From Candidatus Nanohalarchaeota archaeon QJJ-7 (lineage in GTDB: Archaea > Nanohalarchaeota > Nanosalinia > Nanosalinales > Nanohalalkaliarchaeaceae), in NCBI GenBank assembly GCA_022865215.1, contig JALIDP010000005.1:1-36624 (forward strand): a stretch of DNA of 36,624 bases, read 5' to 3'. Numbering within the stretch: the first letter of the stretch is position 1; every line of letters starts with the position of its first letter. The notes under the pieces are model-generated. The model was given only the letters and a program-made list of their open reading frames with translations. It had not been told where the DNA came from and searched no databases. The position numbers were made by a program, and so were the translations under genes. Of the stretch, positions 31,416 through 34,140 are shown in pieces.

Positions 31416-32162
31416 ATGAAGCTGCTAGGCCGGTTCGAGACGGTGGAAAGCTATCCCGCCATATATGACCCTGAGGCGGACGCAGCAGTGGTTTCGGACC
31501 TGCATCTCGGTCTCGAATCGCTGATGGCTGAAGGCGGGGTATTCATGCCGAAGTTCCAGCTGAAGGAGATGAAGGAGGATCTTGAGGAGCTGCTGGAACA
31601 GACCGGTGCGGAGAAGCTTATCGTCCTGGGAGACGTGAAGCACGAGTTCTCCGAAACCTCGAAAGGAGAAAAGGAGGAGGTTCAGGAACTGCTCGACTTT
31701 CTCTCCGACAGGGTAGAGGAAGTACTGTTGGTCAAAGGAAACCACGACAACTATCTTATATACGCTGTAGAAGATTACGATCACGTGGAACTGGAGGACA
31801 GATTCGTGCTGGAGGACGCGCTCTACATCCACGGACATGAACTGGTCGAGGACCTGGAGACCTTCGATGCCTCTTACGTAGTTATCGGACACGAGCATCC
31901 TGCACTAGCGCTGAAAGACGAGGTCGGTGTAAAGGAGAAGCTCCCCGCATTCCTCTACGGTGAGATGGATGACGGGAGGGAATTACTGGTGCTTCCTGCG
32001 TTCTCCAAACTGGCAGATGGTTCCCAGGTCAACCAGGTGAGTGAGGAGGAGCTGATGTCACCGTTCCTGAAGCAGAAGATAGATATAGGCGAGATGGAGG
32101 CAGTAGGTGTTGACAGGGAAGCAGGACTCTTCGAGTTTCCCTCGCTCCGTAAACTGCGGTAG
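31416..32162 (+). CDS. Calcineurin-like metallophosphoesterase
   Basis: 248 residues of the archaeal SbcD-related phosphoesterase family (TIGR00024 type). Metal-binding motifs in order are VSDLHLGLES, LGDVKHEF, KGNHDNYL, HGHEL and IGHEHP. The substrate is unknown; relatives are linked to a Lhr-type helicase in some genomes. CTTTTAAGCC lies about 26 bases before the ATG. Its last codons and stop form part of a hairpin (32148-32171). Confidence 0.93.
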   Translation: MKLLGRFETVESYPAIYDPEADAAVVSDLHLGLESLMAEGGVFMPKFQLKEMKEDLEELLEQTGAEKLIVLGDVKHEFSETSKGEKEEVQELLDFLSDRVEEVLLVKGNHDNYLIYAVEDYDHVELEDRFVLEDALYIHGHELVEDLETFDASYVVIGHEHPALALKDEVGVKEKLPAFLYGEMDDGRELLVLPAFSKLADGSQVNQVSEEELMSPFLKQKIDIGEMEAVGVDREAGLFEFPSLRKLR

Positions 32163-32171
32163 CAGTTTACG
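32148..32171. repeat. Inverted repeat across the phosphoesterase stop codon
   Basis: Arms CGTAAACTGC and GCAGTTTACG with a GGTA loop: ten perfect pairs. The second arm can instead pair with another CGTAAACTGC at 32259-32268, giving a larger structure around the two following hairpins. Confidence 0.75.
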
Positions 32172-32175
32172 TCGA

Positions 32176-32238
32176 TCGAGTTAAATCGCATCTTTCTCGG
32201 AGAAAGATGCTCGAACATCGTTCCGGAGGAACGATGTG
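32176..32238. repeat. Tandem-hairpin element, copy 1
   Basis: TCGAGTTAAATC leads into two 23-base hairpins separated by TCGA. Hairpin one (32188-32210) has arms GCATCTTTCT and AGAAAGATGC; hairpin two (32215-32237) has arms ACATCGTTCC and GGAACGATGT, with a GGA loop. A related block lies at 33844-33907. It sits between convergent stop codons. Role unknown: transcript end, small RNA or remnant mobile element. Confidence 0.8.
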
Positions 32239-32269
32239 ATCTCCGGTTTATCGAGCTCCGTAAACTGCG

Positions 32270-32662
32270 CTAGTGCAGGATGTTACCCTCTTCGTCAGGA
32301 TCGTAGATATCGGCTTCGTTCTCCTCCCTCTCCTCTTCCTCCATCTCTTTCAGTTTCTCCTCCTTCGCCTCTTCTTTCAATTCCTTGAACCTCTTGCTGG
32401 CCATGTCCTCTTCTGATCCATCGGAAGATTTCTCTTCTTCTCGAGGTTGCCTTACCGGTGAAGGTTCCGGTTCAGGGGAAGCCTCCTTCCTCTCCGGAGA
32501 ACCTGTTTCGGCGGGAGAACTTTGATCTTCCACCTTCTCCTCCCCCGGCTGTATGTCCAGTCCTTTAAGTCCTGAATCTTCGGAACTTTCCTTTCTTTCA
32601 GGACTCTCGTCACTCTCCAGCTTGGACTTGATCTTGTCCGCGGGGTCCTCCTCGAATTCCAT
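32270..32662 (-). CDS. Acidic disordered protein
   Basis: 130 residues from the ATG at 32662; the track extension to 32866 runs antiparallel to no promoter and reads through the DedA gene in another frame. MEFEEDPADKIKSKLES is followed by a low-complexity Ser/Pro/Glu region and a charged helix (MASKRFKELKEEAKEEKLKE). It is probably an intrinsically disordered protein; no family recognised. TATA TTTTAAATAAG lies about 23 bases upstream and overlaps the DedA stop. Confidence 0.62.
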   Translation of the reverse strand: MEFEEDPADKIKSKLESDESPERKESSEDSGLKGLDIQPGEEKVEDQSSPAETGSPERKEASPEPEPSPVRQPREEEKSSDGSEEDMASKRFKELKEEAKEEKLKEMEEEEREENEADIYDPDEEGNILH

Positions 32663-32675
32663 ATGAAAAGGATAT

Positions 32676-32696
32676 GACTGCTTATTTAAAACAGTC
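32676..32696. promoter_or_regulatory. TATA box framed by inverted repeat
   Basis: GACTG and CAGTC flank the TATA-like TTATTTAAAA of the disordered-protein gene. A regulator bound here would block TBP. The arms are only five bases, so chance is possible. Confidence 0.35.
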
Positions 32697-33339
32697 CCGG
32701 GAGTAACGCCATTAACCCGGGAGATGAACCTGCTTTGAGCCCGTAATAGGCCACGAATCCCAGGAAGCTTTCGTAAGTCAGGAACCCTAGGAACGAGTAG
32801 ATAGCGAAGGTCCGGATGTTCAACCGGGCGATCCCTGCCGGTACTGCTGCCCATCCACCTATCCACGGGACTATCCTGAGGAAGTACATACTGAGCCTAC
32901 CGTGTTCAACCACGATCCAATCCAGAAACCTCCACTTCTTTGAGTTCCTGTCAGAGATTAAACGTTCGCCTGCAAGCCTCGATATCAAGTAGATGACAAA
33001 GTTGAACGCTGTTATCGTGGCCGCACCTATGATCGCTATGATTAGAACATCCAGGGGAGAATCAGCAACCTCCAGGACATAAAGAGGGGTAACTGTCTCG
33101 GCCGGGACAATTAGGAAGAGAAGGAGCCCTTTGATGGAAGAGGCTCCGATATAGGCCCAGATCCCGTAGGTGGCTATAGCTGTCTCGAGGGCGGAATAGG
33201 CAGTGCCCGCGATACCGCTCACAGGGCTGTTCTCCAGCATCTGGAAGAGGTCTATAACAGCTCTTCCCTGAAGGTATCCCAGGGGTGAACCTACTGACAG
33301 ACCTATCATCAATGCCTGGACCTTCTGGAGTATGGACAT
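32686..33339 (-). CDS. DedA/VTT-domain membrane protein
   Basis: 217 residues with several membrane segments (IKGLLLFLIVPAETVTPLYV, VLIIAIIGAATITAFNFVIYLI, FAIYSFLGFLTYESFLGFVAYYGL). The motif YFLRIVPWIGGWAAVPAGIARLNIRTF matches the DedA/SNARE-associated domain (R-x-P ... AG ... M/L-x3-F). Such proteins move lipids across membranes. GTTATTTATTAC is about 26 bases before the ATG, consistent with a leaderless transcript. Confidence 0.87.
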   Translation of the reverse strand: MSILQKVQALMIGLSVGSPLGYLQGRAVIDLFQMLENSPVSGIAGTAYSALETAIATYGIWAYIGASSIKGLLLFLIVPAETVTPLYVLEVADSPLDVLIIAIIGAATITAFNFVIYLISRLAGERLISDRNSKKWRFLDWIVVEHGRLSMYFLRIVPWIGGWAAVPAGIARLNIRTFAIYSFLGFLTYESFLGFVAYYGLKAGSSPGLMALLPGLF

Positions 33340-33458
33340 CAGGTAGGGGTTCCCCTTCCTGTAATAAATAACCGCGCCCTTTACCCCTTATAGGCCGGTA
33401 TTCCGGGAGTCGAAACCCTTAAATAGTTGTCAGGCGCAGCCATTTCCAGTGGTAAGAT

Positions 33459-33803
33459 ATGGTTGATGTACCGGACGAGGTTGACAAGGAAGATCTGGCA
33501 TTCCCGCATTCGCGGATAGTAAACATGGTCAGGGACGAGACTAAAGATGGACAGTATGTAAGGAAGTCGGTCTATCATGGACTGAATCTTCTTTTGGGTA
33601 ACATCGCAGAGGATATAATCGACAAGCTCGTGCAGACAGATGCTGCGTACATCGAAAAACACGATCTCGACCGCGCCTCGCGGAAGTACGAGAACATCGA
33701 GGAAGTGATGGAGGAGAAGGAGAGGATCATCAAGCATCTCCGCGCGTTGGAGGAGGACGTGAACAAGCTCTCAAGGGACATCGAACGTGCCGGGATGGAC
33801 TAA
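33459..33803 (+). CDS. Histone-fold protein with coiled-coil tail
   Basis: 114 residues. Residues about 12-75 fit an archaeal histone fold: LAFPHSRIVNMVRDE (short first helix), SVYHGLNLLLGNIAEDIIDKLV (long middle helix) and YIEKHDLDRASRKY (loop and last helix with the D-x2-A pattern). A 40-residue helix follows (IEEVMEEKERIIKHLRALEE), with heptad-like hydrophobics suggesting a coiled coil. Histones with such tails are known in archaea as a non-nucleosomal class. Positive surface is low. Whether it binds DNA cannot be read from the sequence. Confidence 0.7.
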   Translation: MVDVPDEVDKEDLAFPHSRIVNMVRDETKDGQYVRKSVYHGLNLLLGNIAEDIIDKLVQTDAAYIEKHDLDRASRKYENIEEVMEEKERIIKHLRALEEDVNKLSRDIERAGMD

Positions 33804-33836
33804 ACGCATCCGAGCGTCAGCGAGGATGGAACCGCG

Positions 33837-33920
33837 ATGAACTTCAAGTGGAAGTCACCTGCTTCCATCGGAAGCAGGTTCAAACAGCGTTCCAGGGGAA
33901 CAATGTGGGGCGCCTCTTAA
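33837..33920 (+). other. Possible 27-codon micro-ORF over hairpin copy 2
   Basis: ATG at 33837 to TAA at 33918-33920 would give a basic 27-residue peptide (MNFKWKSPASIGSRFKQRSR at its start), ending one base before the next gene's ATG. GAGG lies 11 bases upstream of its start. It could be a leader peptide, but chance is equally possible. The basic composition is unlike the acidic proteins around it. Confidence 0.2.
33844..33907. repeat. Tandem-hairpin element, copy 2
   Basis: TCAAGTGGAAGTC leads into a 23-base hairpin (33857-33879; arms ACCTGCTTCC and GGAAGCAGGT), spacer TCAA, then a second hairpin (33884-33906; CGTTCC-type arm GTTCC / GGAAC, two mismatched pairs). Architecture and orientation match copy 1. 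It lies between the histone gene and the next small gene. Confidence 0.75.
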
Positions 33921-33921
33921 G

Positions 33922-34140
33922 ATGGAATGGGTGAAAGCAGGTAAGAACGAGTGGAGGCTCTCATCCCCTGATTTTGAAGGAACTGCTGTTCTCAACCAGA
34001 CCAATGAAGGTTACATCGCATTGGTCAGAGTAGAGGAGAAGCAGTTCGACATGGAACTTTTGAACGACCGCGAGTTCTTCGAGAAGGAGGAGGAAGCGAT
34101 GGAGTTTCTCAGGGACAGGATGGACCGGGACAGTTACTGA
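33922..34140 (+). CDS. Small hypothetical protein
   Basis: 72 residues, not recognised: MEWVKAGKNEWRLSSPDFEG followed by YIALVRVEEKQFDMELLNDR and a charged helix. It has no TATA box at the usual distance and no ribosome-binding site before its ATG. It may depend on the histone transcript, or on the hairpin-containing region upstream. A T-rich run about 15 bases after its stop (CTCTTTTTATTA) may end transcription. Confidence 0.6.
   Translation: MEWVKAGKNEWRLSSPDFEGTAVLNQTNEGYIALVRVEEKQFDMELLNDREFFEKEEEAMEFLRDRMDRDSY

Follow-up and report, generated by a model that had tools for sequence, protein, structure and literature searches.

Two short blocks of the same build, one lying between convergent genes and one ending a single base before a start codon, raise the question of what keeps their base pairing while their sequence changes: a task of the folded RNA at the neighbouring genes, the way in which hairpins arise locally, or the recognition of something that moves. 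The blocks lie in a window of 36,624 nucleotides (the whole stretch of DNA that was analysed), one contig of the 753-kb, 34-contig assembly of Candidatus Nanohalarchaeota archaeon QJJ-7 (labelled G000; other G numbers denote compared genomes), whose proteome is strongly acidic (D+E 19.2%, K+R 10.2%). The phylum sample comprised 28 genomes of 0.5–1.2 Mb each, and the genome-wide conclusions rest on covariance model R2. The blocks are best explained as two copies of a non-autonomous mobile palindromic element (probability about 0.85), and mRNA effects of the window copies, if there are any, are secondary.

Layout and setting of the two window copies

Both blocks consist of a 10-bp hairpin, a TCRA linker and another 10-bp hairpin, and the two-copy layout described in the earlier note on this DNA is thus real:

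32188..32210, no strand assigned: copy 1, first hairpin, 10 bp, loop CGG (direct sequence; R2 match C30:32184-32241, E=2.3e-16)
32211..32214, no strand assigned: copy 1, TCGA linker (direct sequence; T-Y-R-A is the commonest linker in alignments A4 and A5)
32215..32237, no strand assigned: copy 1, second hairpin, 10 bp, loop GGA (sequence analysis)
33857..33879, no strand assigned: copy 2, first hairpin, 10 bp, loop ATC (R2 match, E=7.1e-14)
33880..33883, no strand assigned: copy 2, TCAA linker (direct sequence)
33884..33906, no strand assigned: copy 2, second hairpin, 8 of 10 pairs formed (direct sequence)

Five of the ten pairs of the first hairpin (pairs 1, 3, 5, 6 and 10) differ between copy 1 (arms GCATCTTTCT/AGAAAGATGC) and copy 2 (arms ACCTGCTTCC/GGAAGCAGGT), and each is altered on both sides, as had been claimed. 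The second hairpins are identical at 19 of 23 positions, again as claimed, but the earlier note missed that pairs 4 and 5 of copy 2 (G.A and C.A) are unformed. Its TC(G/A)A leader is present 8–9 nt 5' of the first hairpin in both window copies but, judging by alignments A2 and A4, is not a regular feature of the element. A scan of the window for tRNA found none, so the window copies are not BHB introns, although other copies do occupy tRNA introns.

Copy 1 separates a calcineurin-like phosphoesterase gene from a convergent ORF, and its surroundings are marked by a repeat:

32144..32162, plus strand: left direct repeat, 19 bp, GCTCCGTAAACTGCGGTAG, holding the stop of the phosphoesterase gene (31416-32162) and matching the right copy at 18 of 19 positions
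32255..32273, plus strand: right direct repeat, GCTCCGTAAACTGCGCTAG, holding the stop of a minus-strand ORF (32270-32866)
32162..32171, plus strand: inverted copy of the repeat core, GCAGTTTACG, at the left edge of the insert

None of 300 shuffles gave a match as good as 18/19, and the 19-bp repeat is a probable target-site duplication. The two repeat copies supply both convergent stops, as though the insertion had doubled a pair of overlapping stops (CTAG). The copy on contig C26 is flanked by a 17-bp repeat (15/17). Overall, a clear flanking duplication was found at two of the five sites tested (S27ae, aEF1B and window copy 2 have none) and an insert in a CCA-adding-enzyme gene has no long duplication; the insertion chemistry is therefore not uniform. 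Set against the marks of a MITE, namely terminal inverted repeats in common with an autonomous transposon together with a target duplication, the record consists of 19- and 17-bp duplications at two sites and none at three, with a partner search limited to PF01797.

Copy 2 is located between a 114-aa ORF and a 72-aa ORF, ends 1 base 5' of the ATG of the latter and is part of a larger insert:

33804..33921, plus strand: larger insert around copy 2, CATCCGAGCG..GGATGGAACC..GTGGAAGTC, then the module, then GGGGCGCCTCTTAAG (sequence searches)
33837..33920, plus strand: open frame through copy 2, MNFKWKSPASIGSRFKQRSRGTMWGAS followed by a stop 1 base before the ATG of the ORF 33922-34140 (putative reading frame only)

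This insert is approximately 86–89% identical over about 100 nt to copies 5' of the aEF1B, S27ae and sugar epimerase genes of QJJ-7, giving four sister copies with a common outer frame, each ending 1 base 5' of a start codon in a stop-G-ATG junction. The reading frame is likewise open in the three sisters of copy 2. Because the loop codons of these gene-start copies are non-synonymous (CGG, ATC, TGT, ACA), the stems are kept and the relatives lack the copies, the open frame is taken as read-through DNA and not as a gene, and a conserved small protein was rejected.

Pairing and distribution of the double hairpin

The unit spans approximately 54–63 bp and is made of two 10-bp hairpins with 3–5-nt loops and a T-Y-R-A joint. 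Across loci and lineages the stem arms follow a loose common sequence, RCANCNTTCY, with a linker that is mostly T-Y-R-A. The reverse complement of the element gives an identical layout and both strands fold equally, so that the acting strand cannot be read from the sequence. A total of 18 hairpins with arms of at least 10 and loops of 3–5 occur in 534 kb of QJJ-7 compared with 1.3 in Markov shuffles, and hairpin pairs (arms of at least 7, gap of at most 9) number 17 in QJJ-7 and 16 in G014 with 0 in the shuffled sequences of either genome. A second hairpin class (GAAANYC..GRNTTTC, loops 3–4) is also in excess and is often found near modules (L022:15298-15415, L024:8298-8350, L118 and L126).

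Among 22 aligned copies, 85.4% of the pair cells form (67.6% when shuffled), double-sided changes occur in 18 of the 20 pairs and the covariation is 0.478, compared with 0.171 for shuffled and 0.06–0.13 for slid alignments. The relatives in alignment A4 were recruited by model R1 on sequence alone, with no contribution from structure, and even so 209 of 259 pair cells are formed in its copies outside the seed. These values support the earlier claim that selection or a mechanism preserves the folded form. The wider interpretation built on the window itself holds less well: because both copies are, on the reading preferred here, paralogous members of a mobile family, their "compensation" is a comparison of two insertions, and it provides no evidence for one conserved function at the locus.

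The earlier note had named a lack of further copies, or a loss of pairing in them, as the outcome that would speak against it. A covariance-model search of the genome and its relatives instead found further copies in which the pairing is kept. Model R2 matches 15 places in QJJ-7 and has matches in 11 of the 28 phylum genomes, within 10 genera. A degenerate pattern searched against the genomes of 84,980 species matched two records only, both archaea (a Methanonatronarchaeales MAG and Methanomicrobiaceae archaeon UBA207), and an exact pattern scan of genome contigs gave no match. Outside the phylum, R2 finds about 50 places in G061 (Methanomicrobiaceae) and about 19 in G060 (Methanonatronarchaeales), both counts being drawn from metagenome assemblies, and only three borderline matches in 32 other archaeal genomes. 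Among the genomes compared, QJJ-7, G001, G060 and G061 are rich in copies, and G003, G016 and G005 have none. The copies of these two outside lineages were not used in building R2 and show 93.0% pairing (72.9% shuffled) and a covariation of 0.524 (0.183 shuffled), in an alignment that was fitted to R2 and so leans towards structure. Searches of virus, plasmid and phage sequence sets found no copy in viral contigs and no plasmid or phage match, and cargo of a virus, plasmid or phage was rejected on the basis of these records.

tRNA loci, coding sequences and empty sites

tRNA genes together with the DNA within 100 nt of them make up 1.6% of the sample and hold six of the 15 copies in QJJ-7, a strong enrichment (P=8e-8, with contigs partly chosen for carrying matches). 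Three of the 15 are inside tRNA introns (Gln(TTG), Arg(TCG) and Ser(TGA)), and copies in relatives are found within the introns of Met, Ala, Arg(TCT), Glu and Thr tRNAs. The remaining locations are tRNA 3' flanks, positions 5' of genes, gaps between convergent genes, and coding sequences.

The tRNA loci have further peculiarities. ARAGORN predicts introns in a large share of the tRNA genes of QJJ-7 and G014 (L022, L024, L030, L116, L119, L120 and others), several of them longer than 100 nt and rich in hairpins, with the Ser(TGA) intron of QJJ-7 given as 315 nt. A second tRNA 3' end, running from T-loop through acceptor, follows many of the tRNA genes (Gly, Leu, Ser, Phe, Arg, Met) at a distance of 48–65 nt (seen in L022, L026 and L030 of QJJ-7, L120 of G014 and L208 of G001), and several inserts between a tRNA and its duplicated 3' end carry an inverted copy of the T-arm. 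At L103:293-510 (QJJ-7, C15) an extra copy of a tRNA-Ala 3' end has a double-hairpin module inserted into its T-loop, so that one insertion is nested in another. The intron of a tRNA-Ser(CGA) in G007 (L035) resembles, as its reverse complement, the outer frame of the gene-start copies (GAGAGTGGAACCGTAGTGAC...CTAAG) and has no double hairpin.

Within genes, the CCA-adding-enzyme gene of G001 contains a net in-frame insert of 57 nt that is absent from 17 aligned relatives, QJJ-7 included (IDPENHH-AAHHDDSENRRSSTRSRGNGA-LPNYL in G001, IDPEGRHDKLPNYL in QJJ-7). tblastn matches across the site are contiguous in most of the phylum, and the A. fulgidus CCA-adding enzyme, for which there is a structure, also lacks the insert. 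A gene of QJJ-7 that we take to belong to the DUF2070 family is longer by a net insert of about 63 nt (about 21 aa) than its counterparts in G003 and G018, and comparable inserts are found in a copper ATPase gene (17-aa gap) and in a DapA-like gene of G008. PolB of G060 carries an insert, too; in L282 of that genome the family B DNA polymerase gene has two adjacent modules near its C-terminus. A gene for an MFS-type transporter in G061 (L287) contains three in-frame modules. A NUDIX gene has an insert at the same site in two genera, so that shared descent is likely. At gene junctions, the S24e-S27ae pair has no intergenic bases in the closest relative (G001) and an element-bearing insert in QJJ-7, and the element 5' of aEF1B is found in none of 20 relatives.

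These empty sites demonstrate insertion at new sites; the evidence for mobility consists of cross-species empty sites and flanking duplications, and neither polymorphism between strains nor a transposition event was seen. One module of QJJ-7 (C21:709-771, L109) splits an ORF with the frame intact on both sides and contains an in-frame TGA, and may mark a pseudogene or recoding. In yeast mitochondria, coding inserts called byps are left unspliced but are bypassed. Bypassing of this kind was rejected as superfluous here wherever an insert keeps the frame, a verdict that does not extend to the C21 module with its in-frame TGA.

Origin of the element and comparison with known systems

The element is dispersed, related in sequence over distant archaea, keeps its pairing and is inserted at sites that are empty in relatives. 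It is tolerated where little harm is done, that is in tRNA introns, in tRNA 3' flanks, at gene junctions and in frame within protein genes. A mobilising enzyme may recognise the folded single strand, either DNA during transposition or RNA, and such recognition would explain why the pairing is kept despite sequence drift. The inserts within genes, which are open, hydrophilic and a multiple of three in length, would then be the survivors of selection against damage. The element is probably mostly selfish, as REP doublets and Rickettsia palindromic elements have been argued to be.

A cis-acting regulatory RNA, serving as a 5' leader or 3' end structure that governs the flanking genes of the window through re-initiation, mRNA stability or termination, would suit the four sister copies with their stop-G-ATG junctions, the copy between convergent genes (a place where REPs are often found) and the strong folds of the element copies (z of -2.1 to -3.3). 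It is nevertheless distinctly improbable, since the element is missing 5' of S27ae and aEF1B in all relatives examined, other copies reside in tRNA introns, tRNA flanks and coding sequences with no common set of target genes, and there is no Rfam match even at E=1. The Rfam 15 covariance models gave no match in the window and chance-level matches only in L267; a terminator, riboswitch or other known RNA was rejected on the lack of an Rfam match and the presence of the element within coding sequences. Independent birth of hairpins by template switching or fold-back replication, with no mobile family involved, would account for the direct-inverted-direct arrangements at window copy 1 and at tRNA 3' trailers and for the excess of hairpins of other sequence (78 with arms of at least 8, compared with 26 expected). 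The common sequence disfavours it: the stems are related across loci and lineages by their RCANCNTTCY arms and TYRA linker, the pattern scan matched archaea only and the gene-start copies share 86–89% identity over about 100 nt. Such local birth is improbable for the double hairpin itself and possible for the extra hairpins around modules.

Two further alternatives concern the means of movement. The module might belong to tRNA introns that are excised by the bulge-helix-bulge endonuclease and then reverse-spliced or copied back elsewhere, in line with the three copies found inside tRNA introns in QJJ-7 and several such copies in relatives. This route is retained, as an unlikely one, on account of the tRNA-Ser(TGA) intron: its outer frame recurs in the gene-start copies, with a similarity that stops at the 5' intron boundary, CTTAGGAGG. 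The intron-like frame is, however, antisense to the gene in the gene-start copies, the minimal inserts in coding genes consist of the two hairpins only, with no intron ends, the equal folding of both strands gives no evident RNA polarity, and no examined G061 copy is near a recognised tRNA. Movement as a classical REP or BIME by a RAYT transposase (Y1, IS200/IS605-like) would fit the imperfect-palindrome doublets and their intergenic and in-frame intragenic positions with inserts of 20–30 aa, as in REP doublets (PMC3733652), but is very improbable indeed: the Y1 transposase domain PF01797 is present in 5 of 14 control genomes and absent from all 28 phylum genomes, for which this explanation was rejected, and alignments A4 and A5 contain no GTAG or CGTC tag column, with TYRA standing between the hairpins.

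The non-autonomous mobile element preferred here adds several archaeal lineages, with genomes of tiny or ordinary size, to the range of palindromic DNA that invades genes in frame, and ties such DNA to tRNA introns and to the question of how these arose and spread in archaea. It also presents an orphan mobility mechanism, as a high-copy mobile hairpin lacking the transposase expected for REP-like DNA. Empty sites in relatives allow the inserts to be dated, so that the gain of introns and of peptides is accessible to direct tests. Tentatively, TYRA-linked doublets might form a third superfamily of mobile prokaryotic palindromes, specific to archaea (the nanohaloarchaeal-type phylum, Methanonatronarchaeales and Methanomicrobiaceae), which would use tRNA introns and 3' ends as safe harbours, be moved by a non-Y1 enzyme or by tRNA-intron RNA, and act as a source of tRNA introns and in-frame protein segments.

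Mobile hairpin-built elements also occur in organelles, where mitochondrial double-hairpin elements and the hairpin repeats of fungi, algae and sponges are described as mobile (for example PMC2800124, PMC2670323 and PMC4478555). The mitochondrial double-hairpin elements are like the archaeal element in being mobile and built of hairpins and differ from it in residing in organelle genomes. We know of no tRNA-intron preference among them. Methanocaldococcus jannaschii is said to contain palindromic repeats with coding potential. These are likewise archaeal and fused into protein genes but belong to another archaeal class, a likeness drawn from description only. Fusion of archaeal repeats into protein genes is mentioned where PMC2229807 cites Suyama et al. 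2005.

Two further parallels are bacterial. REP doublets of the GTAG and CGTC palindrome superfamilies are small palindromes, mostly dimers, found between genes and in frame within genes with 20–30 aa; their palindromes are tagged by an unpaired tetranucleotide, and CGTC families have no dedicated transposase (PMC3733652). The archaeal element shares the dimeric palindromes, an unpaired tetranucleotide, the intergenic and in-frame intragenic positions and, with the CGTC type, the lack of a dedicated transposase, whereas it differs in an exactly 4-nt TYRA linker in place of the GTAG or CGTC tag, in 10-bp stems with 3–5-nt loops, in its enrichment in tRNA introns and flanks and in having no RAYT. 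Rickettsia palindromic elements (Ogata et al. 2000) are inserts of 105–146 bp with long stem-loops, known from intergenic DNA and RNA genes as well as from conserved protein genes, whose frame they keep (PMC2229807). The archaeal element resembles them in kind, being in frame in the CCA-adding enzyme, DUF2070, Cu-ATPase, DapA-like and PolB genes, absent from the orthologues, and also present in tRNA introns and at gene junctions, but it consists of two short hairpins of about 55 bp, and the likeness is one of kind, taken from descriptions and not from sequence. The earlier statement that no REP family fits is thus correct as to sequence (a TCRA linker, not GTAG or CGTC, and no RAYT), but the kind of element is a known one. 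By tag and by enzyme the double hairpin is not a REP; by analogy, it may work as REP doublets and Rickettsia palindromic elements do.
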